Below are positions 4,963 to 24,193 of a stretch of DNA of 37,977 nt, in pieces. The first letter of the stretch is position 1. Each line of letters starts with the position of its first letter. Source of the stretch: Ignavibacteria bacterium (GTDB lineage Bacteria; Bacteroidota; Ignavibacteria; UBA10030; UBA6906); NCBI GenBank assembly GCA_027295705.1, contig JAPUKJ010000142.1, forward strand, positions 1-37,977. Direction: 5' to 3'. The notes beneath the pieces were generated by a model, which worked only from the letters and a program-made list of their open reading frames with translations, did not search any database and was not told the DNA's origin. The translations under genes were made by a program, and so were the position numbers.

Positions 4963-4966
4963 TCCT

Positions 4967-5638: not shown

Positions 5639-5862
5639 CTGCACAATCTCATTTTCACACGCCTGAGGCTTACTCAATCTATTAAACGTAGTTGGAAGAC
5701 GCAATGGGGACGTGTTGTTACGCGTGCAGGAAGTTCGCAGGGTTGACTTACGGTCCTCCCTTTCAAGAAAAATGGCCCGTCCTGATGCCTTTCATCTATA
5801 TTGATGGGGAATCAGAACGGACCACTGATGCGAAGCCACCCCTCACCACTGTGAAACCGAGC

Positions 5863-7041
5863 TTAGTCCATGATCTTTCTGAGAAACGCAGGCTTTTCCG
5901 GATCAGCCTTGTCAATCTTTTGCCGATCAGCCTCTTCTTCCCTGTGGTATGGGTTGACCGTAATATCCACACCGCGCCTCACGAACGCCGGCTCATCCAG
6001 TTTCTGCAGCTCAGCCGCACCAGTTGGTATGCGATCAATGACGCGAACTGGCTTCCCGGTTCGCATCGGAACCGACGCACCAGGGCGACGGTTAAAGCCC
6101 GTTGCAATAACCGTTACCATGATCTCGTCCTTGGCGTTCTCATCCACCACAGCGCCCAGAATAACGTTTGCCTCCCCTCCTGCCGCTTCATGAATAATCT
6201 CGGTTGCTTCATCAATCTCTACAAGCGACATCGATGGCCCACCAGTAATATTCACAAGAACACCCTGCGCACCTGAAATGGAAACATCCTCCAGCAGAGG
6301 ACTTGAGATCGCAGCATGAGCTGCCTCAACCGCGCGGTTTTCACCACTGCTTATACCAGAACCCATCACGGCGTCACCCATCTCACGCATCACTGTACGC
6401 ACGTCAGCAAAGTCGACGTTGATAAGACCTGGAACGGTAATCAACTCGGAGATCCCTCGTGTGGCACTGTGTAGCACCTGGTTTGCAATGTCGAATGCTT
6501 CCTGAAGCGGCGTAGCCCGCTCAACTATTGACAGAAGTTTCTGGTTTGGGATAACGATACATGTATCAACTTGTTTCCTTAACTCCTCGATCCCTAGTTC
6601 CGCTTGCGCCATTCGTTTCTTACCCTCACAGTTGAAGGGCCGTGTCACAATTCCAACGACCAGGGCGCCAACGCTCTTGCCAATATTTGCAACAAGCGGT
6701 CCACCACCAGTACCGGTGCCGCCCCCCATCCCCGCTGTAACGAACACCATATCGCTCCCGGTCAATGCGCGGGCAATTTCATCACGATCTTCCTCCACCG
6801 CACGGTGCCCAATCGAAGGATCCGCGCCTGCACCAAGACCGCGCGTTAGATTCTTACCGATCTGTATCTTGTTGGGCGCCTCACTCCTCTCCAATGCCTG
6901 CAGATCACAATTGATAGCGAAAAAGTCAACGCCATGTAATCCTCTTTTGATCATACTATTAATGGCATTGCCGCCGCCGCCGCCAAGACCAACAACCCGA
7001 ATCTTTGCGCCACGATCGAGGTAGTTGTCGAATTCAATCAT
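5863..7041 (-). CDS. ftsZ: Cell division protein FtsZ
   Basis: GGGGNAINSM, tubulin signature GGGTGTG, and C-terminal peptide KPAFLRKIMD. Confidence 0.98.
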   Translation of the reverse strand: MIEFDNYLDRGAKIRVVGLGGGGGNAINSMIKRGLHGVDFFAINCDLQALERSEAPNKIQIGKNLTRGLGAGADPSIGHRAVEEDRDEIARALTGSDMVFVTAGMGGGTGTGGGPLVANIGKSVGALVVGIVTRPFNCEGKKRMAQAELGIEELRKQVDTCIVIPNQKLLSIVERATPLQEAFDIANQVLHSATRGISELITVPGLINVDFADVRTVMREMGDAVMGSGISSGENRAVEAAHAAISSPLLEDVSISGAQGVLVNITGGPSMSLVEIDEATEIIHEAAGGEANVILGAVVDENAKDEIMVTVIATGFNRRPGASVPMRTGKPVRVIDRIPTGAAELQKLDEPAFVRRGVDITVNPYHREEEADRQKIDKADPEKPAFLRKIMD

Positions 7042-7100
7042 TGGTACTTTCTCCTTTAAAGTGGTGGGATGGGTTACATTGAACTTTGTTTTTTTGTCAG

Positions 7101-8333
7101 TTAGAGCTCGTCAAACCACGCTTTCATTTTCGTCAGAACGCTGCCAACCCCCCTGCCGCTCCTGCCACCTACACTTATGGCCGCTTTGTCCTGATATTTC
7201 AACCCGTAATATACCAACCCTACTGCAGTGGAGTAAGTTGGGTTCTGAATTTCGCGAACAAGTCCTCCTGAGAATCCATAAGGAATCCCAATTTTTGCAG
7301 GCATACCCAGCACCTCACTAGCTAGTTCAACCGTTCCCTTAATGAGCGCACCCCCGCCCGTTAGGACAACCCCTCCCGAAAGATGCCTAGCGTACCCTGA
7401 ACGTTTGATCTCGAGCTCCGCAATCTCAAAAATCTCCTCCATGCGAGGTTGGATAATTTGGGCAAGCAAATGTTTGTCTATTTTTATCGGGGACCGTCCA
7501 CCAACGCCTGGTAGAATAATCGGCTCGTTGTCTACTACCGCTGGAGCATATGCAAAGCCGTGCTCTTGCTTAAGCTTCTCAGCTTGCTCGTTCAGAATTC
7601 CAAGGGCTTTGCGAATATCGTCGGTAACTTTCTTACCTGCAATTCCTATGACCGCAGTGTGACGAATTGTTCGTTCTTCAAATACTGCAAGGTCTGTCGT
7701 GCCGCCGCCTACATCAAGCAGTGCAACACCCACCTCTTTCTCCTCGTCGCCCAAGACTGCATAACTTGAGGCAAGAGGCTCAAGGACCATGTCACTTATC
7801 TGCAATCCCGCCCGCTGCACACATTTGTATATGTTTTGTGCCGCGGTCACCAAGCCTGTGATGATGTGAACATTTGCTTCCATTCGCACTCCCGACATGC
7901 CAAGCGGGTCATAGACACCATCCTGTCCATCAATAATGAACTCCTGAGGGATAACATGTATGATCTTCCTATCCGCTGGAAGGGCAACGCGCTTGGTGTC
8001 TTCAATCAACCGATCAATATCTGCTTGTTTCACCTCATTATCAGGCCCACTGATGCCGATAACACCGCGGCTCTGAAAGCTCTGAATGTGATCCCCAGCG
8101 ATACCTACGATCACAGACTTGATCGGTACACCAGACTGGGACTGAGCGTTTGCCACTGCATTGCTAATAGAACTTATGGTTCTATCGATGTGGGTCACCA
8201 CTCCTCGCATCATGCCATCAGATGGACTACGACCAACGCCTAGAATATTAATTCTCCCGTTCTCATCCGTGCCCGCAACAACTGCACAGACCTTCGTCGT
8301 TCCAATATCTAAGCCAATAATAATGTCGTCCAT
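7101..8333 (-). CDS. ftsA: Cell division protein FtsA
   Basis: IIGLDIGTTKVCAVVA, LLDVGGGTTDLAVF, VVLTGGGALIKG. Confidence 0.97.
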   Translation of the reverse strand: MDDIIIGLDIGTTKVCAVVAGTDENGRINILGVGRSPSDGMMRGVVTHIDRTISSISNAVANAQSQSGVPIKSVIVGIAGDHIQSFQSRGVIGISGPDNEVKQADIDRLIEDTKRVALPADRKIIHVIPQEFIIDGQDGVYDPLGMSGVRMEANVHIITGLVTAAQNIYKCVQRAGLQISDMVLEPLASSYAVLGDEEKEVGVALLDVGGGTTDLAVFEERTIRHTAVIGIAGKKVTDDIRKALGILNEQAEKLKQEHGFAYAPAVVDNEPIILPGVGGRSPIKIDKHLLAQIIQPRMEEIFEIAELEIKRSGYARHLSGGVVLTGGGALIKGTVELASEVLGMPAKIGIPYGFSGGLVREIQNPTYSTAVGLVYYGLKYQDKAAISVGGRSGRGVGSVLTKMKAWFDEL

Positions 8334-8383
8334 GATGACCCTTTCTCAACAAAGTAAAACGACAAGTGGACCTTACTGCGACA

Positions 8384-9223
8384 TCATCCCAATGTAACAG
8401 GATTTATCTTCGCCATCGGAATAAGCCTCTCAGGTGGTGGTCTGCTAAACGTGCTAATCGCTTCCTTTTTGTCAGGCTTCCAACATACAACAACCTGATC
8501 GTTGAACCGCAAGTCGACATATTTAAGCTCCTGCGGACCGCGATAGATAACGAACTCCTCCCAAAAGGTATTGAACTTTAGGAGCTTCATGTCAGTATCA
8601 CCGTGACCGAATATGACCGGTACACCATATTCTGCGGTGTAAAAGACTAGGTTTTTGTCACCATCGATACGTATCTCGGAAATGCGACGGAACAGCCCGT
8701 CGCCGATCCCCTGAGCCACAGCTGCAATACCCACTGCCTCCCGGATACTTAACGAGCCGACCTGATTTCCTGGGGTAAAATCAGTCTTATCTAAGGTTCC
8801 GGTGATTACTGGAAGATCCATGATATCGCCTGGTTCGGCCGGGGGCAAGATGTATCCCTCATTGTCGAGATAATGAACCCGCCCCACGATGGCCGCCACA
8901 ATCGGTACACGCTCTACTATGGAAAGAACTATACGATTGGGCACTTCGCGCTTGACCGACACTGACTTGACAAACAGATTTTCATGAACCCTTTCTTGCA
9001 CTGCGTAAAGGTTAACTTTGAATAAATTGTCACCCTTTTCTATTCCTGCCAAGATCAGAACTTCTTCATCGTCCAGGATTCGATTTCCCTCAACCCGCAC
9101 GCTTGTAACTTTCAAATCTCGTTTCCAGATATTGGCCCCCACAACAACTCCTAGGAAGCTCGCGATCAGCAACGTCATCAATAGCGTGTGCCATCCAAAA
9201 CCCTTGTCCGTCTGCCTATTCAT
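8384..9223 (-). CDS. ftsQ: FtsQ/DivIB-type division protein (POTRA)
   Basis: Single N-terminal TM, POTRA-like segment VTSVRVEGNRILDDEEVLILAGIEKGDNLFKVNL; between murC and ftsA. Confidence 0.9.
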   Translation of the reverse strand: MNRQTDKGFGWHTLLMTLLIASFLGVVVGANIWKRDLKVTSVRVEGNRILDDEEVLILAGIEKGDNLFKVNLYAVQERVHENLFVKSVSVKREVPNRIVLSIVERVPIVAAIVGRVHYLDNEGYILPPAEPGDIMDLPVITGTLDKTDFTPGNQVGSLSIREAVGIAAVAQGIGDGLFRRISEIRIDGDKNLVFYTAEYGVPVIFGHGDTDMKLLKFNTFWEEFVIYRGPQELKYVDLRFNDQVVVCWKPDKKEAISTFSRPPPERLIPMAKINPVTLG

Positions 9224-9322
9224 CCTCTTTATCTATTGAGTATCATGATAATTCCCACAGCATGTAATCTTCAAAAAACCAATGTTATTCTCCTAAATGA
9301 AACTCGATTATCTCTCTCGGTT

Positions 9323-10705
9323 CTAATTTTGCATACTCAAGCTCTTTATGAACTCTTCACCATATTTCCAGATATCTCCCGCGCCCATCGTTATGATGAT
9401 ATCTCCCTTTTGTTTGATGCGCAGGAGAAAATTGGCCAAATCATCTTTTTTCGGAACATAGTGCACGTGCTTATGGCCGAACCCCCGGGCCGCATTTGCA
9501 ATCAACTCACCGCTCACTCCCTGGATTGGCTCCTCCCGCGCAGGATATACATCAGTAAGAACAAGAATATCCGCATTGAAGAAAGACCGACCGAACTCCT
9601 CATAAAAGTCGCGAGTCCGTGAATACAAGTGCGGTTGAAAAACACAGACAACGCGTCGCTTCCATCCTGATTTCGCACCGGCAAGCGTAGCCTTGATTTC
9701 AGTTGGATGGTGGGCATAGTCATCGACCACTGTAATGCCATCGATCTCAGCCTTAACTTCCCATCGACGGAACACTCCCGTGAACTTTTCAATACCTTTC
9801 TTCACCTTCTCAAATGGGACATTCAATACCAGCCCGACAGCAATCGCAGCGAGTGCATTCTGAACGTTATGATTTCCAGGGATTTGTAACTTAACGTGGC
9901 CGAGGTGTTGACCATCATGTACAATAGAAAATTCCGCTACGTTTCCTTTGTGGATGATATCTACCGCTTGAAGGTCCGCTTGAGTGTTGATCCCATATGT
10001 GATGATTTTCTTTTTTATCTTCGAAATGACCTCTTGCAGAACGGGATCGTCAAGACAAAGGATAACGGAACCGTAAAACGGGACTTTACTAGCAAATTGG
10101 ATAAACGCTGACTTGATATCGTCCAAGTCTCGGTAACAATCAAGGTGATCAATATCCAGTGTCGTTAACACGGCAATTGTGGGAGTAATCGAAAGGAACG
10201 CCCGATCAAATTCATCAGCTTCAACGACAATAAAATCCCCCTTCCCAAGGCGTGCATTCGAACCTGCAAGCCCACGCAAGCGCCCTCCAACAATCACCGT
10301 TGGGTCAATTCCACCTTCCATCAGCACCAGACTTACCATGGAAGTTGTCGTCGTTTTGCCATGTGTTCCAGCGATCCCAATCCCATATCTTAACCGCATG
10401 ACTTCGGCAAGCATCTCCGCTCGGCGGATCACGGGTATCTTACGTTTCTCCGCCGCCACTACCTCTAGATTGTCTGTAGGTACTGCAGAGGAATAGACGA
10501 GCACATCAACATCCTTGTCAAGATTCTTGACATTGTGGCCGATCCGCACTTTTGCGCCGAGCGATTCGAGACGCTTCGTATTTTCACTCTCCACAAGATC
10601 CGAACCAGTTATCGTAAAGCCCTGGTCAACGAGGATCTCGGCAATGCCACTCATGCCGATACCTCCAATTCCAACGAAATGTAACTTCTTAATGGAAGAA
10701 AACAT
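9323..10705 (-). CDS. murC: UDP-N-acetylmuramate--L-alanine ligase
   Basis: FVGIGGIGMSGIAEIL, GIAGTHGKTTTTSM, VVDDYAHHPTEI. Confidence 0.98.
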   Translation of the reverse strand: MFSSIKKLHFVGIGGIGMSGIAEILVDQGFTITGSDLVESENTKRLESLGAKVRIGHNVKNLDKDVDVLVYSSAVPTDNLEVVAAEKRKIPVIRRAEMLAEVMRLRYGIGIAGTHGKTTTTSMVSLVLMEGGIDPTVIVGGRLRGLAGSNARLGKGDFIVVEADEFDRAFLSITPTIAVLTTLDIDHLDCYRDLDDIKSAFIQFASKVPFYGSVILCLDDPVLQEVISKIKKKIITYGINTQADLQAVDIIHKGNVAEFSIVHDGQHLGHVKLQIPGNHNVQNALAAIAVGLVLNVPFEKVKKGIEKFTGVFRRWEVKAEIDGITVVDDYAHHPTEIKATLAGAKSGWKRRVVCVFQPHLYSRTRDFYEEFGRSFFNADILVLTDVYPAREEPIQGVSGELIANAARGFGHKHVHYVPKKDDLANFLLRIKQKGDIIITMGAGDIWKYGEEFIKSLSMQN

Positions 10706-10744
10706 TGCAACACAGCAGAAAACGTTGTTAGAGTTTCAACTTTG

Positions 10745-11245
10745 CTACCTGTCTGTAAACCTCGGCGTCCGCCAACGTCGACGCTTACGCTTCGGCACCT
10801 GAGCCGATATACGGTTCATTTCACTAATGAGCGCCTTATCTCGCTCATAACGCCCAACGCGTATGCGAAACACACGGCGGCGTCCTTTCAGCTTGAAGAC
10901 TACTACTTGGAACCTTCCGCTGGTTCGCACCTTTGCCTCCCTGCCAATATGCATCCACTCGATGTCCTTCGAGTTAATACTCCGCTCATGAAATCGGTTC
11001 TTGAAGATGATAGTATCTCCAGCGATGATTAGACGCCTGCGTCTGATGTAATTCAAACCGAGCGTAATAAATGACATCACCACAAAAAGAATGACCACAT
11101 ACATCAGTGGATCGTCATACTCAAACTTTGCTTCCACAAAATTCCCGCGAACGCCAACATAGAGAATGAGCGTGAGAAGGTAGATCAGGGCCGATTGGTA
11201 GTAGAAATCGAGCTTGTATTTAAACACTTTCTCTTCTACTGCCAT
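10745..11245 (-). CDS. Two-TM protein with PH-like (bPH) cytoplasmic domain, unknown function
   Basis: 166 aa ORF overlapping the murG 3' end by 26 bp; two hydrophobic helices followed by RRRRLIIAGDTIIFKNRFHERSINSKDIEWMHIG. Confidence 0.65.
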   Translation of the reverse strand: MAVEEKVFKYKLDFYYQSALIYLLTLILYVGVRGNFVEAKFEYDDPLMYVVILFVVMSFITLGLNYIRRRRLIIAGDTIIFKNRFHERSINSKDIEWMHIGREAKVRTSGRFQVVVFKLKGRRRVFRIRVGRYERDKALISEMNRISAQVPKRKRRRWRTPRFTDR

Positions 11246-12362
11246 CCCTTATCTTTGCAAGGCCAATCACTGCTTGCGCGATCGTTGCCGCTGCTTTGGG
11301 CTTGCTAATTGAAAGCGCCCTTTCAGACATCTGTTTCAGCCGTCCCTGGTCGGCAAGAAGTTCCTGAAGTGTATCAAGCAGTTCTCCGCTCAACGTATTA
11401 TCCGCAATCATAATTGCTGTACCGCTGTCGACCATGGCTTTCGCGTTTTCCGTTTGATGGTCGGCAGTAGCATACGGATACGGTATCAGCACCGACGGTA
11501 CGCCCGCCCTTGTTAATTCCGCAACAGTCGTTGCGCCTGCGCGGCACAGAGCTAAGTCACACGCACTATAGGCATACTCCATTCTCTCGATAAACTTGAA
11601 CACCTTGATGGCGCCTCTTTCCTTCTCAGCCCGATATTCTGAACTAGCTATGATCGTATCATAGTCGTTTTCCCCTGTCTGCCAGATCACCTGTATGTCA
11701 GATGCCATCAGGCCAGACAGAATGATAAGCACAGCACGATTAATGGACCTGGCTCCCAAGCTTCCACCGAACACCAATAAAGTCTTCTTTTGCACATCAA
11801 GTCCAAAGAAACCTGCCGCCTCAGCTCTTGTAATACTGCCGAGCGTCGCACGCGTTGGGTTACCGCTGAGCTGGACATTGCGAGCCCGCTTGAAGAAGCG
11901 TTTTGAGCTCTCGAAGGATATGTGCACCTGATCCACACGTGACGACAAAAAACGAGTAGTAAAGCCGGGATAGCTGTTCTGTTCCTGAATCAAGGTCGGT
12001 ATTCCCAGAACAGACCCCATGTACACTACCGGGCCACACACATAGCCGCCCGTTCCAACAACAACTGTCGGCCGTAGCCTCCGCATGAGAAGGAATGACT
12101 GCATAAGTGCAACGACCAATTTTACAGGAAATAGGAAGATTTCCAGTGTCAATTTTCTTTTGAAACCGCCCACCCAGATCGGGACAAACTTGTACCCACG
12201 GATTGGAACAACGCGCTCACCTATTCCACCCTTCGTGCCAACGAACGTAATCTCCGCTTCAGGCTTGATCTTCTTCACTTCGTCCGCAACTGCAACAGCC
12301 GGAAACAGGTGCCCTCCAGTCCCCCCACCGGCGAAAAGTATGTTGAGCCGTTCTTGTTGCAC
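11220..12362 (-). CDS. murG: UDP-N-acetylglucosamine--N-acetylmuramyl-(pentapeptide) pyrophosphoryl-undecaprenol N-acetylglucosamine transferase
   Basis: FAGGGTGGHLFPAVAVADE, VVGTGGYVCGPVVY, CRAGATTVAELTRAGVPSVLIPYPYATADHQTENA. Confidence 0.98.
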   Translation of the reverse strand: MQQERLNILFAGGGTGGHLFPAVAVADEVKKIKPEAEITFVGTKGGIGERVVPIRGYKFVPIWVGGFKRKLTLEIFLFPVKLVVALMQSFLLMRRLRPTVVVGTGGYVCGPVVYMGSVLGIPTLIQEQNSYPGFTTRFLSSRVDQVHISFESSKRFFKRARNVQLSGNPTRATLGSITRAEAAGFFGLDVQKKTLLVFGGSLGARSINRAVLIILSGLMASDIQVIWQTGENDYDTIIASSEYRAEKERGAIKVFKFIERMEYAYSACDLALCRAGATTVAELTRAGVPSVLIPYPYATADHQTENAKAMVDSGTAIMIADNTLSGELLDTLQELLADQGRLKQMSERALSISKPKAAATIAQAVIGLAKIRDGSRRESV

Positions 12363-12381
12363 ATCCGCTTCGAACCAAAAA

Positions 12382-13563
12382 TCAAAATACGTTTCCAGCC
12401 GCTGGTAACTGCGTCAGTTCAACCGGCTGCGTTCCTCCTGGCGCTTTTGTCAACCGCGGATGCATGTCGGTTTGCGACGAAATATTTAGCAGCACACCAA
12501 TCGCAATTGACGAGAACAACATGGACGAACCTCCGTAGCTGACGAATGGCATTGGCAAACCTGTCGTCGGAAGTATCCCGACTGTCACACCTGCGTTGAT
12601 CAGTGCGCACAAGGTAATGCAAGTGGTAATGCCTATGGCCAAATAAGCACCGAAATCATCGCGAGCATGCTTTGCAACTCTAAATCCGCGCAGAGTGACC
12701 GTCACGAATAGAAGCAAAATGCACAGCGTCCCTATCAATCCATACTCCTCACCAACAACGGAGAAGACAAAGTCGCCATACGATTCCGGCAGGAAGAAAT
12801 CACGCTGCCTGCTGTGACCCGGACCCAATCCAAAGATACCTCCATTCCCGAATCCAATGATGCCCTGCCATAGTTGATAATTTCCCTTTGCACCCAGGTC
12901 ACCGCCTCCGGCGACGAAGTTTGAAATTCTTTGACCAAAATCCATGATTCTGCGGTAGCGGTATTCTGCGCTCGCCAGATATGCGATCAGGACGGGAACC
13001 AGTGCACCGACCGTGAACCCAATGTGAGCGAAACTTGCCCGCCCGATAAAAAGCATCAAAAAACTGACTACAAATATAATCGCTCCGCTGCTAAAGTCCG
13101 GTTGCAACAGCACGAGTGATGTTACCGCGACGATCCATATCATCATCGGGAGAAATCCCGTCTTGAAATCCGCGATGTGTTCTTTCTTATCTGACATCAG
13201 GACACATAAGTGGAAAACTAATGCATACTTGGCAAACTCTGAAGGCTGAAATCCAAATCCGCCATGACGAAGCCAGCGACTATCTAACACCAGTGTTGTA
13301 ACAAGCAACAAGACAGCTAAGATCAAGATCAGCTTTGTTCGCTTCCTGTAGCGCTTGTAGTCGATGTTCATAAAGATGAAGATCGCCAAGAAGCCGGCAA
13401 CAACTTTCGTTGCATGACTTGTTAACAACCTCTCGCTCTCGCCAAATTTCTCCAACGCCCATGTGGAGCTGGCGCTGTAGACCACACCCATGCTCATTAC
13501 CATCAGGATCAAGACACAAACCAATATGGGGAGATCGATGTGATTCCGTTGCGTACCAATCAT
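12382..13563 (-). CDS. ftsW: SEDS-family peptidoglycan polymerase FtsW
   Basis: Multi-TM; PSEFAKYALV, VVGEEYGLIG, TTGLPMPFVSYGGSSM. Confidence 0.95.
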   Translation of the reverse strand: MIGTQRNHIDLPILVCVLILMVMSMGVVYSASSTWALEKFGESERLLTSHATKVVAGFLAIFIFMNIDYKRYRKRTKLILILAVLLLVTTLVLDSRWLRHGGFGFQPSEFAKYALVFHLCVLMSDKKEHIADFKTGFLPMMIWIVAVTSLVLLQPDFSSGAIIFVVSFLMLFIGRASFAHIGFTVGALVPVLIAYLASAEYRYRRIMDFGQRISNFVAGGGDLGAKGNYQLWQGIIGFGNGGIFGLGPGHSRQRDFFLPESYGDFVFSVVGEEYGLIGTLCILLLFVTVTLRGFRVAKHARDDFGAYLAIGITTCITLCALINAGVTVGILPTTGLPMPFVSYGGSSMLFSSIAIGVLLNISSQTDMHPRLTKAPGGTQPVELTQLPAAGNVF

Positions 13564-13578
13564 ACAAGAGCGACTACT

Positions 13579-14943
13579 TCATAAATTCATTACTATTTGT
13601 TTGAACACGCGCCCACGCTGCTCGTAATTCTCGAACCAGTCGAACGAGGCACATGCTGGCGACAGAAGAACGACATCTCCCGGTGAAGCTAGTGCTGCAG
13701 CTGCGTGGACAGCCTCCTCCATTGTGGTTGCCCTAGTGACCCCAACGATCGGTGTGAACACCCCCACGACATTTTCAGCCGATTCACCAATGCCCACAAT
13801 ATGTTTTACATGCTCTTTCACAACCCCAAACAACCTTGAATAGTCATTACCCTTATCCCTGCCTCCAAGAATTGCAACGATCGGTTGATCGAAGCTCTGC
13901 AACGCATACCAAACCGATTCTACATTTGTCGCCTTGGAATCGTTCACAAATGTCACGCCGTTTACAATGCGAATAAATTCCAGTCGATGTTCGACACCTT
14001 TGAAATTCCTTAAGGTGGAACGCAGGGACGCTGTGGAGATATCCATAACCTTGGCTACCAGCGAAGCAGCCATCGCGTTGTAAAGGTTATGCTGTCCTCT
14101 GACGCTAAGATCACCGGTTGCAATGACATCAGATTCATTGCCATCAACAATTGTTTTCAATCGATTAGCAGCGACAAACGCACCTTCGTTGACAGGCTTC
14201 TCTTTGCTGAAAGGCAATTTCTTCACCCTCGGGTCAACGAATTTTTCAACATTACTGCTTGCTACGTCGTCATTCATATTATAGATGACATAGTCGCTAG
14301 CGCGCTGATTTTCAAACACCCGGCATTTGGAAGCGATATAGAGTTCAAACGACTGCTGATAGCGGTCCAGATGATCCGGAGTTATGTTTAACAGCACTGT
14401 CACTTTTGGCCTGAAAGACTCAATATGGTCTAATTGAAAACTGCTAACTTCAACGATTGCAACACTTTGTTGAGTCAGTTGATCTACTATTTGTGAGAAG
14501 GCGATACCAATGTTTCCCGCCGTCATAGCTGTTCTTTTGGCATCCTCAAAGATTCTCCCTATTAATGCCGTCGTTGTCGTTTTGCCATTAGTCCCCGTTA
14601 TAGCTATGATAGGCGCTGGACAAAACCAGCTGGCAACTTCTATCTCACTGACGACCTTTACAGCTTTTGCCTTCGCTTCCTTGATGATCGGAATATCTGA
14701 AGGGACACCCGGACTCAACACGATAATATCCGCCTCAAGGACCCTCAGCGTATTGCCACCAAACTCGTGCGATAACTTGAGCCGTTCAAGCTCATCGACT
14801 GTTTGAGACATCTGCTTTGCTGGCGCTTTCTCGCTGAGAAAGACGTCGGCTCCACGTGCCCGCAATAGCTTGGCAACCGCAAGGCCACTTCTAGCTCCAC
14901 CGATGACAGCAAATTTCTTCTTCCTAGCCTCGGACGGTCGCAA
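13579..14943 (-). CDS. murD: UDP-N-acetylmuramoylalanine--D-glutamate ligase
   Basis: AITGTNGKTTTTALIG, NITPDHLDRY, FVNDSKATN, ILGGRDKGNDYS. Confidence 0.97.
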   Translation of the reverse strand: MRPSEARKKKFAVIGGARSGLAVAKLLRARGADVFLSEKAPAKQMSQTVDELERLKLSHEFGGNTLRVLEADIIVLSPGVPSDIPIIKEAKAKAVKVVSEIEVASWFCPAPIIAITGTNGKTTTTALIGRIFEDAKRTAMTAGNIGIAFSQIVDQLTQQSVAIVEVSSFQLDHIESFRPKVTVLLNITPDHLDRYQQSFELYIASKCRVFENQRASDYVIYNMNDDVASSNVEKFVDPRVKKLPFSKEKPVNEGAFVAANRLKTIVDGNESDVIATGDLSVRGQHNLYNAMAASLVAKVMDISTASLRSTLRNFKGVEHRLEFIRIVNGVTFVNDSKATNVESVWYALQSFDQPIVAILGGRDKGNDYSRLFGVVKEHVKHIVGIGESAENVVGVFTPIVGVTRATTMEEAVHAAAALASPGDVVLLSPACASFDWFENYEQRGRVFKQIVMNL

Positions 14944-14949
14944 GGCGAT

Positions 14950-16074
14950 CTATCTTACCTTGAACGTTGCCAGACTAACGATCATCATAACTATTGCAAC
15001 AATATAGAATCTCACCACGACTTTCGGCTCTGGCCAGCCGAGCATCTCGAAGTGATGATGCAGTGGTGCCATTCTAAACAGCCGTCGTCCCGAGCCGTAC
15101 CTTCTCTTTGTGTATTTGAAGTAGGCTCGTTGAACAATCACCGATCCCGCTTCTGCTAAGAAGACACCGCCAAGCGTCGGTAGTAGAAGCTCCTTCTTAA
15201 GGAGAACACACAGTGCCCCAATTGCCCCACCCAATGCCAGCGATCCTGTATCCCCCATGAATACCTGTGCCGGGTACGCATTGAACCAGAGAAATCCCAA
15301 TGCGGCGCCTGCCAGTGCAGTACAATAGACTGCCAATTCTCCGTTGCCCCTTAGAAAAGGAATTGTCAGATACTCGCTGACAACAGCATTACCTGAAATA
15401 TATGAGATTACTGCGAGCGTCACGGCGACAATACCAACCAATCCAATTGCAAGGCCGTCAAGACCGTCCGTCAGATTCACCGAATTTGATGTGGCAGTGA
15501 TAACAAGGATAACCATGGGTATGTAGAAATACCCGAAATCAAACTCTAAGTTCTTGAAGAACGGAACCGTGGTTGAGGAATTGATCCTCCACAAATCCGG
15601 ATCTATCCAGTGAGGATAGAAATAGATGATGCCACCGACCACAATTCCAACAAGAACCTGTCCGACAATTTTATACGTTCCAATGAGGCCCTTCGGCTTT
15701 TTTTTCACAACCTTCAGGAAATCATCTAGAAAGCCTACGACACCAAGTGCTGCTGTAACAAAGACTATCAGAATAATGTACGTGTTTTCAAGATTGCCCC
15801 AGAGAACCGTCGGAATCAATACTGACGCCAGCACGATAAGCCCACCCATCGTCGGTGTCCCTGCTTTGGACAAATGTGTTTTGGGCGCATCGGTCTTTGC
15901 AGCCTCTCCGATATGCTTCTCGTTCAATATCTTGATGATCTTCGGCCCCAACCAGAATGCAATGACCAGAGCAGTGACAGCCGCAGCAGCTGCCCGAAAC
16001 GTGATGTACTGCGCTAGCCCAAATCCAGGCGGATGATACGCTTTTTCAATTAGACCAAAGAGATAATAGAGCAT
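14950..16074 (-). CDS. mraY: Phospho-N-acetylmuramoyl-pentapeptide transferase
   Basis: GTPTMGGLIVL, GFLDDFLKV, NSVNLTDGLDGLA, MAPLHHHFEMLGWPE. Confidence 0.98.
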   Translation of the reverse strand: MLYYLFGLIEKAYHPPGFGLAQYITFRAAAAAVTALVIAFWLGPKIIKILNEKHIGEAAKTDAPKTHLSKAGTPTMGGLIVLASVLIPTVLWGNLENTYIILIVFVTAALGVVGFLDDFLKVVKKKPKGLIGTYKIVGQVLVGIVVGGIIYFYPHWIDPDLWRINSSTTVPFFKNLEFDFGYFYIPMVILVITATSNSVNLTDGLDGLAIGLVGIVAVTLAVISYISGNAVVSEYLTIPFLRGNGELAVYCTALAGAALGFLWFNAYPAQVFMGDTGSLALGGAIGALCVLLKKELLLPTLGGVFLAEAGSVIVQRAYFKYTKRRYGSGRRLFRMAPLHHHFEMLGWPEPKVVVRFYIVAIVMMIVSLATFKVR

Positions 16075-16086
16075 GCTCCCATAGTA

Positions 16087-17511
16087 TTATGCCGTACCCG
16101 TTCGTCCGAACGGCACTGCAGTTGAGTGCAACCGCTCATCCAAGAAAGTTACAATATCCTCCATCTTCATCACGCGCGAACCCTTCACTAGCACTGCATC
16201 TCCCGGCGCAACTAGCTCGGCAAGATATTCGGCAAGCATGTTTTTTTGATCATAATGGAATCCACACTCAAGCTTCGCTGCCTCAGTTATGTATTTTGCC
16301 AACTCGCCATGTGTTAGGAGATACTTCAGACCCAACTGCGATACCTCCTTGCCAATGCGCGCGTGTTCTTCTAGCGCATGCTTGCCAAGCTCACGCATAT
16401 CGGCAAGAACTGCTATTTTATTTCCCCGAACCTTTGCTTGGGCAAGAGTCCGAAGCGCCGCGATTGTCGAATCAGGATTCGCATTGTACGTATCGTCATA
16501 AATAGTCACCCCATGAACTTTCAACACTTGCATTCGCATGGCCGCTGGATCACACGATTCTAATGCTTTCCGAATTCTGTCCGCTGAGACCCTGAACGAC
16601 AATCCCACGGCCGCCGCCGCCAAAGCATTTATAGCATTGTGTTCACCAGGAATTGATAACTGCACCATCAAACCTCTCTTCAGTTTCTCACCAGCGAACT
16701 GAAACTTGACACAACTTGCACTATTCGTACTAATAAGCTTTCCCTTCAAGTCGACGCGTGGGGCAGTAAAGCCATAAGTAAATCTGCCTTTCAGACCTTT
16801 CGAGTTTAACACAACGCGCTCATCATCGGCGTTAACAAAAGCACACGATCCCTTGTGCCTCTTTAGATGTTCAAATAATGCCCCTTCTTCCTTCGCTACA
16901 CCGTTTAGCGACCGCAAGAACTCAAGGTGTTCCTTGCCGATGCTGGTGATCAATCCATGAGTCGGTTCAAGGATATCTGAAAGTGCTTCTATCTCTCCGG
17001 GCCGATTGGTCCCTATCTCAACAATTGCCACATCGTGCTTATTTCTTAAACGAAACAACGTAAGCGGCATCCCTATGTGGTTGTTGAAATTTCTTTCCGT
17101 GCTCAGCACATTATATTTTGTACCTAGCACAGCTGCCAGCATGACTCTGGTGGTGGTCTTCCCGTTACTACCCCCAATAGCGATTACTGGAATGCGAAAC
17201 TTCCGTCTGTACAAGTATGCCAATTCGCCAAGCGCTCTCACGGTGTCCTCAACCAACACCAGCGGCACACTGCGGTAACGGGTGATATCAGTAGATACAC
17301 CGACAACAGCTGCGACTGCGCCTTGTTCAAAGGCATGCTCAAGGAATTCCTGCCCATCGAAGTTCTCACCCTTCAGAGCAAAGAACAGTTCACCTGGCCT
17401 GATGTGCCGCGAATCTGTCGAGACGCCGGTGATGCTCATACCATTCATTGACTCAATGTTACGAGCCTCGATGTAGTTAATGTTCAGTAGATCTCTGCTG
17501 GTGAGCTTCAT
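16087..17511 (-). CDS. murF: UDP-N-acetylmuramoyl-tripeptide--D-alanyl-D-alanine ligase
   Basis: GGSNGKTTTRVML, VEIGTNRPGEI, YDDTYNANPDS; 4-bp overlap with murE. Confidence 0.97.
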   Translation of the reverse strand: MKLTSRDLLNINYIEARNIESMNGMSITGVSTDSRHIRPGELFFALKGENFDGQEFLEHAFEQGAVAAVVGVSTDITRYRSVPLVLVEDTVRALGELAYLYRRKFRIPVIAIGGSNGKTTTRVMLAAVLGTKYNVLSTERNFNNHIGMPLTLFRLRNKHDVAIVEIGTNRPGEIEALSDILEPTHGLITSIGKEHLEFLRSLNGVAKEEGALFEHLKRHKGSCAFVNADDERVVLNSKGLKGRFTYGFTAPRVDLKGKLISTNSASCVKFQFAGEKLKRGLMVQLSIPGEHNAINALAAAAVGLSFRVSADRIRKALESCDPAAMRMQVLKVHGVTIYDDTYNANPDSTIAALRTLAQAKVRGNKIAVLADMRELGKHALEEHARIGKEVSQLGLKYLLTHGELAKYITEAAKLECGFHYDQKNMLAEYLAELVAPGDAVLVKGSRVMKMEDIVTFLDERLHSTAVPFGRTGTA

Positions 17512-19016
17512 GACTCTTTCAGTATAAACCTGCTAACCTCTTCCCCGTCGTCAAAAGGGATTTGTGTTTCCCCTACGACCTGATATTTCTCATGTCCCTT
17601 CCCAGCGATCAAAACGATGTCGCCTTTCTTAGCGAGATTTAAGCCTCTGAGAATCGCCTCGCGCCGATCAACCTCAGCGTACACTGTCTTCCCTTTAACT
17701 GCGCCCGTCAATACTTCATCGATGATCGATTGTGGGTCTTCGCTTCTTGGGTTGTCAGATGTAACAATGGTAATATCGCTGAGCTCCGTCGCTATTCTAC
17801 CCATCTTCGGTCGCTTAGTGCGATCTCGTTTCCCCCCACACCCGAAAACCGTAATAATCTTACTGTCTCGCTTCGATGGAAGAATTTCCCGGATGGCACG
17901 CAGGCAACTCTCTAAAGCGTCGGGTGTGTGAGCGTAATCCACAATTGCAGTCCAACCACTGGGCGACCCAATTTGCTCGAACCTCCCGGAGACGGACTCA
18001 AGATTCTTGATGCCCGTGCGAATTTGCTGCTCATCAATTCCCAATCCAATACCGGCTGTATATGCTGCCAAGATGTTAGTGACATTGAACCCGCCTGTTA
18101 GCGAAGAACTGACTGATTGAGTGTTATCACCTCGTACTACGGTAAATGTTGTTCGGTTAAGAGTACACTGACAATCTACCGCTCTTACGTCGGCGTCAGA
18201 TTTTGTGCCATAAGTAATCTTAATCGCACGCGTAGAGTCAATTATCCTCAACCCATAGCTGTCATCCGCATTAGTTACTGCATATGCTTCCTCGGAAAGA
18301 CAATCGAACAACAATTTCTTCGCTTTAAAGTATTCCTCCATAGAACCATGAAAATCCAGGTGGTCTTGCGTAAGATTAGAAAACACTGCAGCAGCAAACG
18401 TTAGTCCATACACGCGACTCATCGCCAGTGAATGAGACGACACTTCCATAACTGCAGCGGTACAGCCTCTCTTAACCATTGTTGCAAGAAGTTGGTTGAG
18501 TTCCAGCGACTCAGGAGTAGTGTGGGTGGCCGAAACTATCTCGTGCGCTATCCTATATTCGACGGTACCAATTAGCCCAACATGTTTATTTGCGGCTTCA
18601 AGAATCGATTTAATTAGATACGTTGTAGTGGTTTTGCCATTCGTACCAGTCACACCTATGAGCTGTAATTGTTTCGAAGGATGGCCATAGAAGTTTGCCG
18701 ACATCGTAGCTAGCGCTCTCCGGGAACTACTAACCACAATTTTTACTACCCCCTCGTGCATGAAGAACGAATCTGGCATTGCTACATCGTCCTCTAGCAC
18801 GACAATTTTTGCTCCAAGATTCACCGCATCACCAATGAATGCATGTCCATCCACAACAGAACCCCGAATGGCCACGAACAGGTCACCATTCTGCACTTTC
18901 CGCGAATCGTACTGGATGCTTCTTACGTCCACATCGCGTGTCTGTAGCATCTTCCCCGACGTGATATGAAACATCTTGGCAACAGAAACTCCTTCCAAAA
19001 CGTTCGATAAGGTCAT
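17508..19016 (-). CDS. murE: UDP-N-acetylmuramoyl-L-alanyl-D-glutamate--2,6-diaminopimelate ligase
   Basis: GVTGTNGKTTTTYL, HTTPESLEL, VDYAHTPDALE, and TSDNPRSEDP (DNPR motif of meso-DAP ligases). Confidence 0.97.
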   Translation of the reverse strand: MTLSNVLEGVSVAKMFHITSGKMLQTRDVDVRSIQYDSRKVQNGDLFVAIRGSVVDGHAFIGDAVNLGAKIVVLEDDVAMPDSFFMHEGVVKIVVSSSRRALATMSANFYGHPSKQLQLIGVTGTNGKTTTTYLIKSILEAANKHVGLIGTVEYRIAHEIVSATHTTPESLELNQLLATMVKRGCTAAVMEVSSHSLAMSRVYGLTFAAAVFSNLTQDHLDFHGSMEEYFKAKKLLFDCLSEEAYAVTNADDSYGLRIIDSTRAIKITYGTKSDADVRAVDCQCTLNRTTFTVVRGDNTQSVSSSLTGGFNVTNILAAYTAGIGLGIDEQQIRTGIKNLESVSGRFEQIGSPSGWTAIVDYAHTPDALESCLRAIREILPSKRDSKIITVFGCGGKRDRTKRPKMGRIATELSDITIVTSDNPRSEDPQSIIDEVLTGAVKGKTVYAEVDRREAILRGLNLAKKGDIVLIAGKGHEKYQVVGETQIPFDDGEEVSRFILKES

Positions 19017-19048
19017 ACATCCCTGTCAGGTTTGCCGTGCTAACAAAT

Positions 19049-19735
19049 CTAGCTCGCGACTACCTTCTCAGCCACGTACGAATAGTACACTCCATCGAGA
19101 AACTCCCACAACGCCTCGGCTGTGCGCGCAGATGCTTCTTGCACTGGCAAGACAAGATCAGGTGGGGTGCTTCTTTCAATCATCTCTCTCTCAGCACGAG
19201 AATGGAAAACGTCCGCCTCTTGATGGACAGAAAAGAACTTCGTTGCGTGCGCACTGCTGATACCGTGGAACCTTCTTAGTCCTTCCCTCTTCACACGGGA
19301 GACTTCTGGAATCTGAGCTTCGTAAGTATAGAGTACTGCCAATCCCTCCTGGAACGAACGGTTGCGGCAAATGTCCATCATTGTCTCCACAAGAGCTATT
19401 GTAGATGGCAGTGGAGTTGCAGCCTGCAATTCCTCATCTGTAGCACCCAGAGCATTCGCAAAACGCGCCCACAGTGCTGGATGGTTCTCCGTTCCATTTT
19501 CCTCATCCATTAGGTTCATCAAAAGCTCTTGGCGCACCGAAATGTCTGGCGTATTAGAATGTACAGCGCTCACCATACGCGGAAAATCTCTTATGAAATA
19601 ATTGTATTGGCAAGCATATTGCGTCAACATCTCGCGAGTAAGACTTCCTTGATTCCACGCTTGGTAAAATGGATGCTTAAGCATGCTCTTGTCCTCAAGC
19701 ATCTTGTCGATCACTTTGAAAAGAGCGGATGACAT
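19049..19735 (-). CDS. CADD-like heme-oxygenase/PqqC-fold diiron protein, candidate self-sacrificing p-aminobenzoate synthase
   Basis: 228 aa, AGGAG 5 nt before ATG. Spacing of E78, H85, E139, H171, D175, H178, plus Y24 and K149, equals Chlamydia CADD E81/H88/E142/H174/D178/H181/Y27/K152 with a constant offset of 3 (CADD numbering recalled, not looked up). Confidence 0.85.
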   Translation of the reverse strand: MSSALFKVIDKMLEDKSMLKHPFYQAWNQGSLTREMLTQYACQYNYFIRDFPRMVSAVHSNTPDISVRQELLMNLMDEENGTENHPALWARFANALGATDEELQAATPLPSTIALVETMMDICRNRSFQEGLAVLYTYEAQIPEVSRVKREGLRRFHGISSAHATKFFSVHQEADVFHSRAEREMIERSTPPDLVLPVQEASARTAEALWEFLDGVYYSYVAEKVVAS

Positions 19736-19810
19736 ATGAACTCCTCGAAATTAGTGAATGTTTACCTTGAGAAAAATATCCCCATCCACGCTTGCAACCT
19801 TGCTGAGGGT

Positions 19811-21994
19811 TTAATGAACCATCAGCGCGGATAGGTCTTTTGGCTGACACCTAACAGAAACGCAAGCGCCGATTTTGACGCGTTGCCCAACCCTAGGCTT
19901 CTGGTCGACGACGATTCCACTTCCAGCTACTTCTACATCGAGCTGTCGCATAGCTAACCTGTTCATCGCACGGCGGATCGTCATCCCTCGCACATCTGGA
20001 ACTACAGTATACCCACCAGCCATGGTTTCATCAGCAGCAGTCGTCGTAAGTTTCACAAGACCATCGGACGATAATTTCATTGGAGGTGCTGGGGACTGCC
20101 CTGCAATGAACTTGCCATCGCCGAGCGTCTTAACCCTAAAGCCTTGAGACCTCAATACATCGATCGCGACATCCGTCCTTAGGGTTCTCACGTCGGGTAT
20201 CGCCATTGGCTGCTTCCCTGCGATGGCTGCATTTGATTTCTTCGTAAACCGAGCACACGTGGCAATAACCTTTTCTATAATAGCCCTGAAAATCGGGGCA
20301 CTGGCCACTCCTCCAGTATAGCCACCCACGCGTGGATTGTCGAGCATCACAACACACATGACCTTAGGGTCTTCGGCAGGGAAAAACCCTGCAAACGATG
20401 CTGTATAACTGCCGCGTTCGTACTTCCCACCCACAAACTTTCTGGAGGTGCCCGTCTTCCCTGCTACAGACACGCCTTTTACTTTCGCGGAGACCCCAGT
20501 GCCTCGCTCAACGACACCAACGAGAAAGCTTGTCAGCGTTTGAGCTGTTGTTGTGGAAATAACTTGGCGAATTACTTGACTACGGGTCTCTACAATGATT
20601 TCATTATTCTCATTGAGAACTTGCTTTAGAATATGTGGTCGCATCAAGACCCCTTTATTTGCGACCGCGGCGTACGCAAGGGTGATTTGCAGTGGCGTAA
20701 CACCAACTTCATAGCCATACGCTATCGAATTGAGCGTAGTTCCAGACCATTGATTCGGCTTTTTTAGCTCACCGCTCACCTCGCCTGGTAGCTCAAGACC
20801 AGTTTCTGTCCCAAAGCCAAAATTTCGCGCCGTCAGGTAAAGGCTCTCGACTCCGATCAAGTCGGAAACCTTCGCCATGACGATGTTGCTCGAAAGTTCC
20901 ATCGCATCTTGGAACGTGATTGTGCCATATTCATGGATGTCATTTATCGTTCGCGACTTTCCATGGCCGAGCTTAACTATATACTTTCCATTCTCAGCAA
21001 AAAAATTTTGCTCAGGTGTGACCAGATCATGTTCCAACGCCGCAGATGCTGTCACTATTTTGAACATCGAACCCGGTTCGAACATGTCTGTGATGATGCG
21101 ATTTCTCATCAGTGATGGATCGGTACCGGAGACATTATCCAAGTTCACGGGTGGGTAGTTTGCCATCGCGAGGATTTCGCCGGTCGTTGGGTCCATCATT
21201 ATCACTAGACCGCTCTCCGCTTTGTTCTGCTCAATTCCCCTACGCAATTCTTCTTCTGCAATGGCTTGATATTCGAGATCAATTGTCAAAACAATGCTAT
21301 TGCCATTTATAGGTTCCACCCGGGGGTAGTCTACAGAGGGTCGCTTACGACCAAGTCCGTCTCGCTGCATAATGACGTACCCGTCGGTGCCTCTGAGATT
21401 CTCGTCAAATTGCAACTCGGTCCCTGTCAGACCATTATTATCAACATCTGTAAATCCTATTACGTGGGCGGCGATGTGGTCGTAATGGTAAATTCGCTGG
21501 GGTTCATTGAGTTGGATGAGCCCTTCAAACTCTATCGCGTTAATTTTCTTTGCGTAATCTGGTTTGACCCTGCGCTTTAGCCAGACAAACCGTTTGTTTG
21601 TAGCTGAAATTTTCTTCAAGTACTCTGAGCTGGACTTCCCAAATACTCGAGAAAATCGTCGTGCAATCGCTGGAGCATCACGCCCGACGATAGCAGGATC
21701 TACACCAAATGATACATACATGCTATTTGATACAAGTATCTTGCCCTTGCTGTCATAAATGTTTCCACGTGTTGCCGGCAAAGCCACCTTTGCCTCGTAT
21801 TGTTTCCTTGCGATTCCTTGGTATAACGAGGCTTCTATGACTTGAATCTGTACAAGACGCAACCCAATAACTAGGAACAAGGCGAGAAACGTAAGCTTCA
21901 GTGTAAAAATCCGAATGGGGGACGTCCTAGCTGAGGCTGCCGGAATCCTCGAAGGAACCGATGACCCTCTCTTTGATCTGAACATTGAGAACAT
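19811..21994 (-). CDS. ftsI: FtsI-type class B penicillin-binding protein with C-terminal PASTA domains
   Basis: N-terminal TM; PGSMFKIV (SxxK), VAGKTGTSRKF (KTGT); two PASTA-like repeats (IPDVRTLRTDVAIDVLRSQGF, VPDVRGMTIRRAMNRLAMRQL). Confidence 0.94.
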   Translation of the reverse strand: MFSMFRSKRGSSVPSRIPAASARTSPIRIFTLKLTFLALFLVIGLRLVQIQVIEASLYQGIARKQYEAKVALPATRGNIYDSKGKILVSNSMYVSFGVDPAIVGRDAPAIARRFSRVFGKSSSEYLKKISATNKRFVWLKRRVKPDYAKKINAIEFEGLIQLNEPQRIYHYDHIAAHVIGFTDVDNNGLTGTELQFDENLRGTDGYVIMQRDGLGRKRPSVDYPRVEPINGNSIVLTIDLEYQAIAEEELRRGIEQNKAESGLVIMMDPTTGEILAMANYPPVNLDNVSGTDPSLMRNRIITDMFEPGSMFKIVTASAALEHDLVTPEQNFFAENGKYIVKLGHGKSRTINDIHEYGTITFQDAMELSSNIVMAKVSDLIGVESLYLTARNFGFGTETGLELPGEVSGELKKPNQWSGTTLNSIAYGYEVGVTPLQITLAYAAVANKGVLMRPHILKQVLNENNEIIVETRSQVIRQVISTTTAQTLTSFLVGVVERGTGVSAKVKGVSVAGKTGTSRKFVGGKYERGSYTASFAGFFPAEDPKVMCVVMLDNPRVGGYTGGVASAPIFRAIIEKVIATCARFTKKSNAAIAGKQPMAIPDVRTLRTDVAIDVLRSQGFRVKTLGDGKFIAGQSPAPPMKLSSDGLVKLTTTAADETMAGGYTVVPDVRGMTIRRAMNRLAMRQLDVEVAGSGIVVDQKPRVGQRVKIGACVSVRCQPKDLSALMVH

Positions 21995-22023
21995 GTGATG
22001 GTGCTAGTAACACTTTGTACCAC

Positions 22024-22392
22024 TTAGTCCGCCATAGCTTTCCCGAGTTTTACTTCATCAATTTCAAACCGTGTAGGCTGCTCTTTGGGGTATTTCAGCC
22101 CCAGCATCTTCGAAGCAAGCTTGCCAATACGTTCCCGGGCTGATTTTCGGTCGACCTCTGCCTGCAGAATCGTGTTAGTATTAGCAATCTTCACGTACCT
22201 ACTCTGAAGTTGGCTTACCTGGGACGCAAGACGATTGACGTAAATAATATTACCTACATAAAGAACGATTGTTATCCCATAGCCGAACAACATCAGTATA
22301 ATATTGAATGTAGATGCATGGTACGCACGTTTCTTTTGGATCCGATTGCGATACAACATAGCCAGATTCGATGGAGGACTGTGGTTAAACAA
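22024..22392 (-). CDS. ftsL: FtsL-like small bitopic division protein (TTG start as in ORF track; ATG alternative at 22359)
   Basis: Basic N-terminus, one TM, coiled coil, positioned between rsmH and ftsI. Confidence 0.75.
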   Translation of the reverse strand: MFNHSPPSNLAMLYRNRIQKKRAYHASTFNIILMLFGYGITIVLYVGNIIYVNRLASQVSQLQSRYVKIANTNTILQAEVDRKSARERIGKLASKMLGLKYPKEQPTRFEIDEVKLGKAMAD

Positions 22393-22551
22393 TGTATCGT
22401 TTCTCGGGTCCAGGCAGGTTTGATCGCTGGGAGACCTCTACCTGCAAACGCGTTGGGTAATTCTTCAAAATCGCCACTCGGTTTCTTGGCTAGAGTACAT
22501 TGCGTTGAGTTTTCTTTTCCAGACCGTTGATACCGAACTCACATTTGCCAT

Positions 22552-23475
22552 CTAAAGAATTCGCTCGCCCACCCTTATTCTTGCACTTCGAGATCTAGGA
22601 TTCCGCTGGATTTCATTCTCGCTCGGCCTCACTGGTTTCTTGGTCAGCAGCCTGAACCTTTGTGGTCTTTCTCCACTAGCAACATATATGTTTGCCGGCA
22701 GAGTTGTTTCCGTTGATCCGCTCTTAAGGGTAGATTTCACCATTCTATCTTCCAGCGAATGATACGAGATAACAACAACGCGACCACCAGGAGCCAGCAC
22801 ATCGAACGAATCTCTCAGCACAGCCCTCAGATTCTCCAGTTCATTGTTCACCTCGATCCTGATCGCCTGAAACACTCGCGCAAGGGTTTTTGTTAGAAAT
22901 CTTTTTCCAACCACCGCTTCAGCAATATGGCTGAGAGATCCTGTTGTGTGTACCGGTCGTGCTTTCACGATTCTCTTTGATAGCCGTCTGGAATTACGTT
23001 CTTCACCATATTCCCAAAGAACCCGCGCCAAGGCTTTTTCTTCGTAAGTGTTGACAACATCCCAACCACTCAATGATTGCCTCCGATCCATTCTCATATC
23101 GATACGCTCATCGGTCCTGAAGCTGAATCCTCTGTTACCTTCATCCAGCTGAAAAGAGGAAACCCCTAAGTCGAGCAGTAGCCCATGGATTCTCCCAACC
23201 GCGGCTGGCCGCAGCTCAATCTTGAGATCCGCAAAATTGGAATGAACAAATGATACACGCTCTTCAAACCGCTTTAGCCGCTCGCGTGAAAACTCAATCG
23301 CATTTTCATCAACATCATAGCAGATGAGCCGCCCTGCCTCGTTCAAGCGGCTGCATATTGCTTCTGCGTGTCCACCACCACCGACTGTTGCATCGACATA
23401 GATCCCACCTGGATCTGTAACCAGATAGCGAACAACTTCGTCCAGCATAACTGGAGCGTGGTACAAACCTTCCAT
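22552..23475 (-). CDS. rsmH: 16S rRNA (cytosine1402-N4)-methyltransferase
   Basis: YHAPVMLDEVVRYL, VDATVGGGGHAEAI, LLLDLGVSSFQLDEGNRGFSF, VISYHSLEDRMVK. Confidence 0.98.
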   Translation of the reverse strand: MEGLYHAPVMLDEVVRYLVTDPGGIYVDATVGGGGHAEAICSRLNEAGRLICYDVDENAIEFSRERLKRFEERVSFVHSNFADLKIELRPAAVGRIHGLLLDLGVSSFQLDEGNRGFSFRTDERIDMRMDRRQSLSGWDVVNTYEEKALARVLWEYGEERNSRRLSKRIVKARPVHTTGSLSHIAEAVVGKRFLTKTLARVFQAIRIEVNNELENLRAVLRDSFDVLAPGGRVVVISYHSLEDRMVKSTLKSGSTETTLPANIYVASGERPQRFRLLTKKPVRPSENEIQRNPRSRSARIRVGERIL

Positions 23476-23517
23476 CGGTGTAAAGAGCTCTACTCATAAA
23501 CTGGATAAGCCGATCAA

Positions 23518-23961
23518 CTACTTTTGGAAAACCGCTTGGGCAACGTTTTCATAACTCTCAGCCTGCGCCTGAAGGTACTCTTCATGCACTTTCGGATTCC
23601 ATACCTCGATACGCTCCAGAACACCTAGAATGAGCACCTGGTCCTCAATGCCAGCGTATTGTAGCAACTCCTTGGGAATCGTTATGCGAGATTGACCGTC
23701 AAGCTTAGACTCAGTAGCATATTGCAGAAGCGTGCGCGTGAAGAATCGGTGTTTAGGATTAGAGGGCGAAAGTTGACGTATGGATTGCTCAAGCATGTTC
23801 CATTCATCGAGCGGGTAGACTGATAAGCATCGTTCGTATCCACGCATAATGACGAAAGTATCGTTTGCCTCGAGCGAAACATACTTTCGCAACTTTGCCG
23901 GAATGTTAATACGGCCCTTGCTATCTATGGAGTATCCATATGATCCCTTGAAAGAAGACAT
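23518..23961 (-). CDS. mraZ: Transcriptional regulator MraZ
   Basis: Two AbrB-like repeats: SIDSKGRINIPAKLR and KLDGQSRITIPKELL; first gene of the dcw cluster. Confidence 0.97.
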   Translation of the reverse strand: MSSFKGSYGYSIDSKGRINIPAKLRKYVSLEANDTFVIMRGYERCLSVYPLDEWNMLEQSIRQLSPSNPKHRFFTRTLLQYATESKLDGQSRITIPKELLQYAGIEDQVLILGVLERIEVWNPKVHEEYLQAQAESYENVAQAVFQK

Positions 23962-24012
23962 TATGTCTAAATGACAGGAAGACGAAAATTGGCGATTCCT
24001 GGTTATATTCTA

Positions 24013-24037
24013 CCCACTTAAAACCCACTTTTACCCA
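24013..24037 (-). promoter_or_regulatory. Putative MraZ operator: three TGGG repeats
   Basis: Plus strand CCCA at 24013-24016, 24024-24027, 24034-24037 (periods 11 and 10), i.e. GGTGGGTAAAAGTGGGTTTTAAGTGGGTAG on the mraZ strand, 52-76 nt before the ATG. Confidence 0.75.
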
Positions 24038-24047
24038 CCAAGGAATT

Positions 24048-24077
24048 CAAAGATATGCCTTTGGTCCTTAAAGTCAA
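24048..24077 (-). promoter_or_regulatory. mraZ promoter: TTGACT-N16-TATCTTTG
   Basis: Reverse complement TTGACTTTAAGGACCAAAGGCATATCTTTG just upstream of the TGGG repeats; -7 element matches TAnnTTTG. Confidence 0.6.
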
Positions 24078-24193
24078 GCAAAAAATTTTGGAATCTGGGC
24101 GTTTTTCAGGGAGTTTAAGGGACTGAAAAAGACGGCGGGATTTGAGCCTGGTACCAGGATTACCCACTCTTGTGCACTGAGGACATAACAATC

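Follow-up and report, generated by a model that had tools for sequence, protein, structure and literature searches.

What is a gene of the CADD family doing between ftsI and murE in the dcw cluster of an environmental bacterium, and does its product make p-aminobenzoate (pABA)? The gene occupies positions 19049..19735 (minus strand) of the window, the whole stretch of 37,977 nucleotides that was analyzed. From sequence and model comparison, we consider it to be a self-sacrificing, single-turnover pABA synthase of the CADD/NePabS type, which would serve as the organism's own pABA source in place of PabA, PabB, and PabC, and we put the probability of this reading at about 0.87. It would be an additional member of the small family of single-turnover enzymes that consume their own side chains. 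Whether proteins of this type do a second job has been a question ever since CADD was introduced as a host-apoptosis protein, and CADD has been proposed to be a two-function protein in Chlamydia.

Gene order and reading frame

The initial annotation placed an open reading frame of 228 aa, with its own Shine-Dalgarno site, between ftsI and murE. This gene is real and lies on the minus strand, which had not been given before. It starts with an ATG at 19735, its stop codon ends at 19049, and the plus strand of the same interval is interrupted by stops. A GAGGAG Shine-Dalgarno motif (19741..19746, minus strand) is located 5 nt ahead of the ATG. Directly upstream is the gene of an FtsI-type PBP (19811..21994, minus strand), in which transpeptidase, PBP_dimer, and PASTA domains were recognized by HMM; it ends at 19811, leaving a gap of 75 nt. 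Directly downstream, after 32 nt, follows murE (17508..19016, minus strand; NF001126, 602 bits, cut-off 373), so that ftsI, CADD, and murE are co-directional.

The surrounding dcw cluster is complete and uniformly oriented, with mraZ (23961) first and ftsZ (5863) last. All of its genes are on the minus strand and include mraZ (23518..23961; PF02381), rsmH (mraW; 22552..23475; TIGR00006), a gene of the ftsL/DivIC type (22024..22392; PF04977), murF (16087..17511; TIGR01143, 400 bits), which overlaps murE by 4 nt, and mraY, murD, ftsW, murG, murC, ftsQ, ftsA, and ftsZ (5863..16074). Among the latter, mraY, murD, ftsW, ftsA, and ftsZ were named by HMM and ftsQ by its POTRA domain, while the names of murG and murC come from the reading frames themselves. 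Genes with DUF4175 and DUF4159 domains (1585-5704, minus strand) lie directly downstream of ftsZ. Spacing and gene order suggest that CADD is co-transcribed with ftsI and murE; promoter and terminator scans of positions 17000-24100 remained at chance level and were uninformative on this point.

Probable assignment to the pABA synthases

In an HMM search, the protein matched TIGR04305, the NCBIfam model for the "CADD family putative folate metabolism protein", with 264 bits against a cut-off of 200. At an E-value of 7.5e-79, this match is not due to chance. Membership of the PqqC (TIGR02111, 46 bits, cut-off 240) and TenA (TIGR04306, 33 bits, cut-off 130) families was rejected; both share the heme-oxygenase-like helical fold at approximately 17-20% identity. 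Placement among TenA or PqqC, which the initial annotation had named as a possible refutation, thus failed to refute the CADD assignment. The best sequence matches in the PDB are 9pj4 (4-aminobenzoate synthase, E 4e-64), 1rcw (CT610), and 8va9; among solved structures, the nearest are thus pABA synthases. With 28 relatives as input, AlphaFold gave a model (pLDDT 95.9) that superimposes on Chlamydia trachomatis CADD (8va9/1rcw) with an rmsd of 1.0 Å, a TM score of 0.89-0.90, and 42-43% identity, compared to 2.1 Å or worse for PqqC. The earlier proposal of a CADD-type pABA synthase is supported by all of these comparisons.

The proposed catalytic residues were all found as described. All ligands of the dimetal site are present, three of them Glu/Asp and three His (E78, H85, E139, H171, D175, and H178), and Y24 and K149 align with Tyr27 and Lys152 of CADD in 1RCW, at the offset of three that had been predicted; 9PJ4 has a Tyr and a Lys at the equivalent alignment positions. 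The full signature Y24-E78-H85-E139-K149-H171-D175-H178 is complete in 168 of 170 aligned family rows, which include a few genes twice; one of the two remaining rows is truncated at the end of its contig, and the other is a deviant alignment. Tyr24 and Lys149 are invariant across the 170 rows.

The protein can be compared with the two characterized enzymes. CADD (CT610; 1RCW, 8VA9), which uses Fe/Mn, has the same fold, the six metal ligands, and the sacrificial Tyr and Lys, but its gene is found among folate genes, in contrast to the dcw location in an environmental organism. NePabS (NE1434) of Nitrosomonas europaea, an Fe/Fe enzyme, has the sacrificial Tyr and Lys in common with the window protein, whereas its genomic context is glyA. 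Orthologues of Nitrosospira are approximately 50% identical to the window protein; they and 9PJ4 carry an insertion of about 10 residues after residue 61, which is absent from the window protein. The superfamily is functionally diverse (PMC13108848) and TIGR04305 is a subfamily model rather than an equivalog, which could speak for a heme-oxygenase-like dimetal enzyme that acts on another small molecule and makes no pABA. This alternative is very improbable, as every pABA-specific residue is present and the best matches are the two characterized pABA synthases.

Proposed reaction and metal use

In CtCADD and NePabS, a dimetal site reacts with O2 and a radical is passed over approximately 14 Å to the sacrificial tyrosine, whose ring is excised and oxidized while a lysine donates the amine, yielding one pABA per protein (PMC11965152, PMC13108848). 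By analogy with this work, the dimetal center of the window protein would activate O2 and the radical would move to Tyr24. Cleavage between CA and CB would release the Tyr24 ring as the ring of pABA, Lys149 would supply the amino group, and the pABA would then be consumed by FolP. The invariance of Tyr40 and Tyr44 suggests that both may take part in the radical path. The requirement for O2 is a point against the pABA synthase reading.

Metal choice in NePabS depends on two residues: two Phe-to-Tyr changes switch the enzyme from Fe/Fe to Mn/Fe, and the F148Y variant is active with either Fe/Fe or Mn/Fe (PMC11965152, PMC13108848). This pair is Tyr/Tyr in CADD and Phe/Phe in NePabS, while the window protein has Tyr138/Phe167. 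The tyrosine at position 141 of CADD is also Tyr in the window protein, whereas CADD Tyr170 is replaced by Phe167; conversely, Phe at NePabS position 177 is retained and NePabS Phe148 corresponds to Tyr138. Because this combination matches that of the F148Y variant, the window enzyme is predicted to be cambialistic, using Fe/Fe or Mn/Fe. The same pair occurs in 150 of the 170 family rows, so that the metal choice of most of the family is expected to be unlike that of either characterized member.

Folate genes in the host genome

The host genome is a 2.67-Mb draft in 335 contigs (92.6% complete), of which the window is contig 49. PF00425, the family of PabB, TrpE, and isochorismate synthases, gave no match in this 92.6% complete draft, compared to a match in 14 of 14 control genomes. 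Since no chorismate-binding enzyme was matched, PabB appears to be missing. An overlooked PabC was also rejected: the PabC models remained far below their own cut-offs, and the sole class-IV aminotransferase (Aminotran_4) is IlvE, with two equivalog models over cut-off. Dihydropteroate synthase (FolP) is present, with 290 bits for the DHPS equivalog. The genome therefore has a pABA-sized hole, which again argues against an enzyme with another substrate.

FolK (HPPK, PF01288) was not found in the 335-contig, 92.6% complete draft. With FolP present, we consider it more likely that FolK has diverged or fell into a gap of the assembly than that it is really absent. The genome search proposed in the initial annotation thus gave a FolP, but no PabB, PabC, or FolK; a complete pabABC, the other possible refutation, did not turn up, as neither a PF00425 enzyme nor a PabC-type aminotransferase was detected. 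Against the pABA synthase reading, the folate route is incomplete on paper, a draft of this kind could hide folK or pabB, and the concurrent absence of TrpE would also fit a reduced aromatic metabolism with possible uptake of pABA or folate. The lack of any chorismate-binding enzyme, including TrpE, makes this organism a probable tryptophan auxotroph.

In a survey of 120 relatives, pabB exceeded the TIGR00553 cut-off in 0 of the 15 genomes that carry an intact CADD and in 39 of the 105 that do not (Fisher p = 0.0024, ignoring kinship among the relatives). Five CADD genomes with an estimated completeness of 100% (G102, G106, G111, G112, and G115) contain no PF00425 enzyme and keep a FolP-type match.

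Distribution of the dcw placement

The same insertion was found in neighboring genomes. The order ftsI-CADD-murE is kept in six genomes of two families of the order, namely the window, G009, and G011 (f1), and G023, G028, and G033 (f4); the CADD copy of G009 is cut by a contig end. In a tree with 30 others, the six copies from dcw clusters group together as a single clade (bootstrap 98, SH-aLRT 96), so the placement was inherited or moved as a unit. Either one insertion with many losses or a transfer between the families could explain it, and MurE alone does not decide how f1 and f4 are related. In the open-access literature searched, no description of this context was found. The conserved place between ftsI and murE, together with the orthologues there that have lost the chemistry, is the new aspect of this family member.

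A dcw placement general to CADD was rejected: across 80 loci from a species-wide scan and some 95 genomes belonging to the class, just six genomes have it. Approximately 95 of 394 genomes of the class carry CADD over cut-off, and among them the dcw location is restricted to the window, G009, G011, and G023; the dcw copies of G028 and G033 score just below the TIGR04305 cut-off. At two further loci (L060 and L099), a weak FtsI-like match (28%) lies near CADD without adjoining it.

One explanation is that CADD landed by chance in a strongly expressed operon and has been kept by descent, pABA and division being unconnected; the f4 copies would then be redundant relics whose decay is slowed by read-through into murE. 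The narrow distribution speaks for this, as does the gene order in close relatives without CADD, where ftsI lies beside murE. The other genomes of the order that were examined also have these two genes side by side. We give this explanation even odds.

The placement may also have a use. Since each protein would yield at most one pABA, the amount made in a cell cycle would depend on how much of the protein is produced. A growth-linked operon would consequently offer an easy means of matching pABA to growth, and we present this as a speculation about the dcw location. The coupling, if real, would amount to a simple scaling of the output of a one-shot enzyme with growth.

Orthologues that have lost the catalytic residues

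The f4 orthologues share the ftsI/murE place and the clade of the window gene, but they lack the sacrificial Tyr, their metal site is broken, and pabB is present elsewhere in the genome. They are located in dcw clusters at L122:7914-8675, L124:7399-8175 (minus strand), and L125:3257-3994, with signatures FEFEKRDH, FESEKRDH, and FIIQKFFD, compared to YEHEKHDH. In all three, Tyr24 is replaced by F and Tyr44 is also F, the latter being Tyr in 170 of 170 others. H85 is changed to F, S, or I, and H171 to R, R, or F. Active pABA synthesis by these proteins was therefore rejected. Pathway genes agree, as pabB exceeds the TIGR00553 cut-off in all three f4 genomes and adjoins a class-IV aminotransferase gene in G023 and G033. 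Because the catalytic residues are lost, the placement in f4 cannot concern pABA supply, and the coupling of folate supply to division that the initial annotation had raised could not apply there. In G023, a 245-aa open reading frame with an RHS-repeat match (L122:7154-7891), absent in the window, lies between ftsI and the CADD-like gene.

The f4 gene seems to have outlasted its chemistry at the dcw site, which points to either a second role or slow decay. For a second role, the dcw-embedded lineage would also have a non-catalytic job in wall synthesis or division, as a protein partner or a regulator; both roles would coexist in f1, including the window, whereas f4 would have kept only the non-catalytic one after pABA supply passed to PabB. 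The single dcw clade and the pabB genes of f4 are consistent with this. In the G023 copy, only 4 of 32 invariant residues are changed (Tyr24, Tyr44, His85, and His171), every one of which is catalytic or a Tyr-to-Phe change. Between G023 and G028, the synonymous difference is 0.74 (saturated) and the non-synonymous difference 0.27, and a neutral reading frame that had diverged this far would remain uninterrupted in about 5 of 100,000 simulations. As judged from these sequence differences, the two copies are under purifying selection. Moreover, the CADD gene abuts murE in G023 (TAATG) and overlaps it in G028 (ATGA).

Read-through into murE would keep the frame open, but it would neither hold non-synonymous change this low nor preserve the 17 of 32 invariant residues that are unchanged in all three f4 copies. 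Amino-acid identity between G023 and G028 is 0.59 for CADD, compared to 0.79 for MurE and 0.72 for MurF; this faster evolution favors chance insertion and relics, although FtsI is equally fast (0.54). Low non-synonymous change favors a role, whereas the heavy loss in G033 favors decay: this genome is 62% complete and its CADD copy lacks nearly all metal ligands. Against a second role, there are only three f4 genomes, of which G033 resembles decay, and no partner is known. Such a role would also be dispensable, because most f1 genomes have nothing between ftsI and murE. On balance, we regard a second role as unlikely, albeit worth pursuing.

A fuller scenario is that a pABA synthase entered the division and wall operon in one order and gained a non-catalytic role, and that a PabB-bearing sister family keeps it as a pseudoenzyme beside murE. 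We hold this course of events to be doubtful. If true, CADD would be a two-function protein in free-living bacteria. Active and dead orthologues at one site provide a natural separation-of-function test for a second CADD job.

Neighbors of CADD in other genomes

Outside the dcw cluster, wall genes recur beside CADD, which is a further point in favor of a second role. CADD is directly downstream of murI (glutamate racemase) in six of six f3 genomes (L108, L112, L115, L116, L118, and L119), and in at least three f30 genomes (L205, L208, and L216) it is downstream of the gene of a PBP1A-family class-A PBP, with a short reading frame between. These repeated neighbors were looked for after the first had been seen and are suggestive.

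Other neighbors belong to different pathways. In f10, CADD comes after gcvP, a gene of a folate-dependent pathway, and in the MAG of a gammaproteobacterium it is preceded by a folK-folP fusion. In L108, peptide deformylase comes after CADD. In two small genomes of f5, CADD is followed at a distance of 6-9 nt by a tyrosine phenol-lyase gene; it was confirmed by HMM in L113 (6582-7967, minus strand), while L114 has a reading frame of the same length in the same order. CADD-like proteins of approximately 190 aa (L126:7856-8416, minus strand, and L127:7986-8546; 24-71 bits) have part of the signature and carry His-x-x-x-Glu instead of HxxxD, and they probably represent another subfamily.
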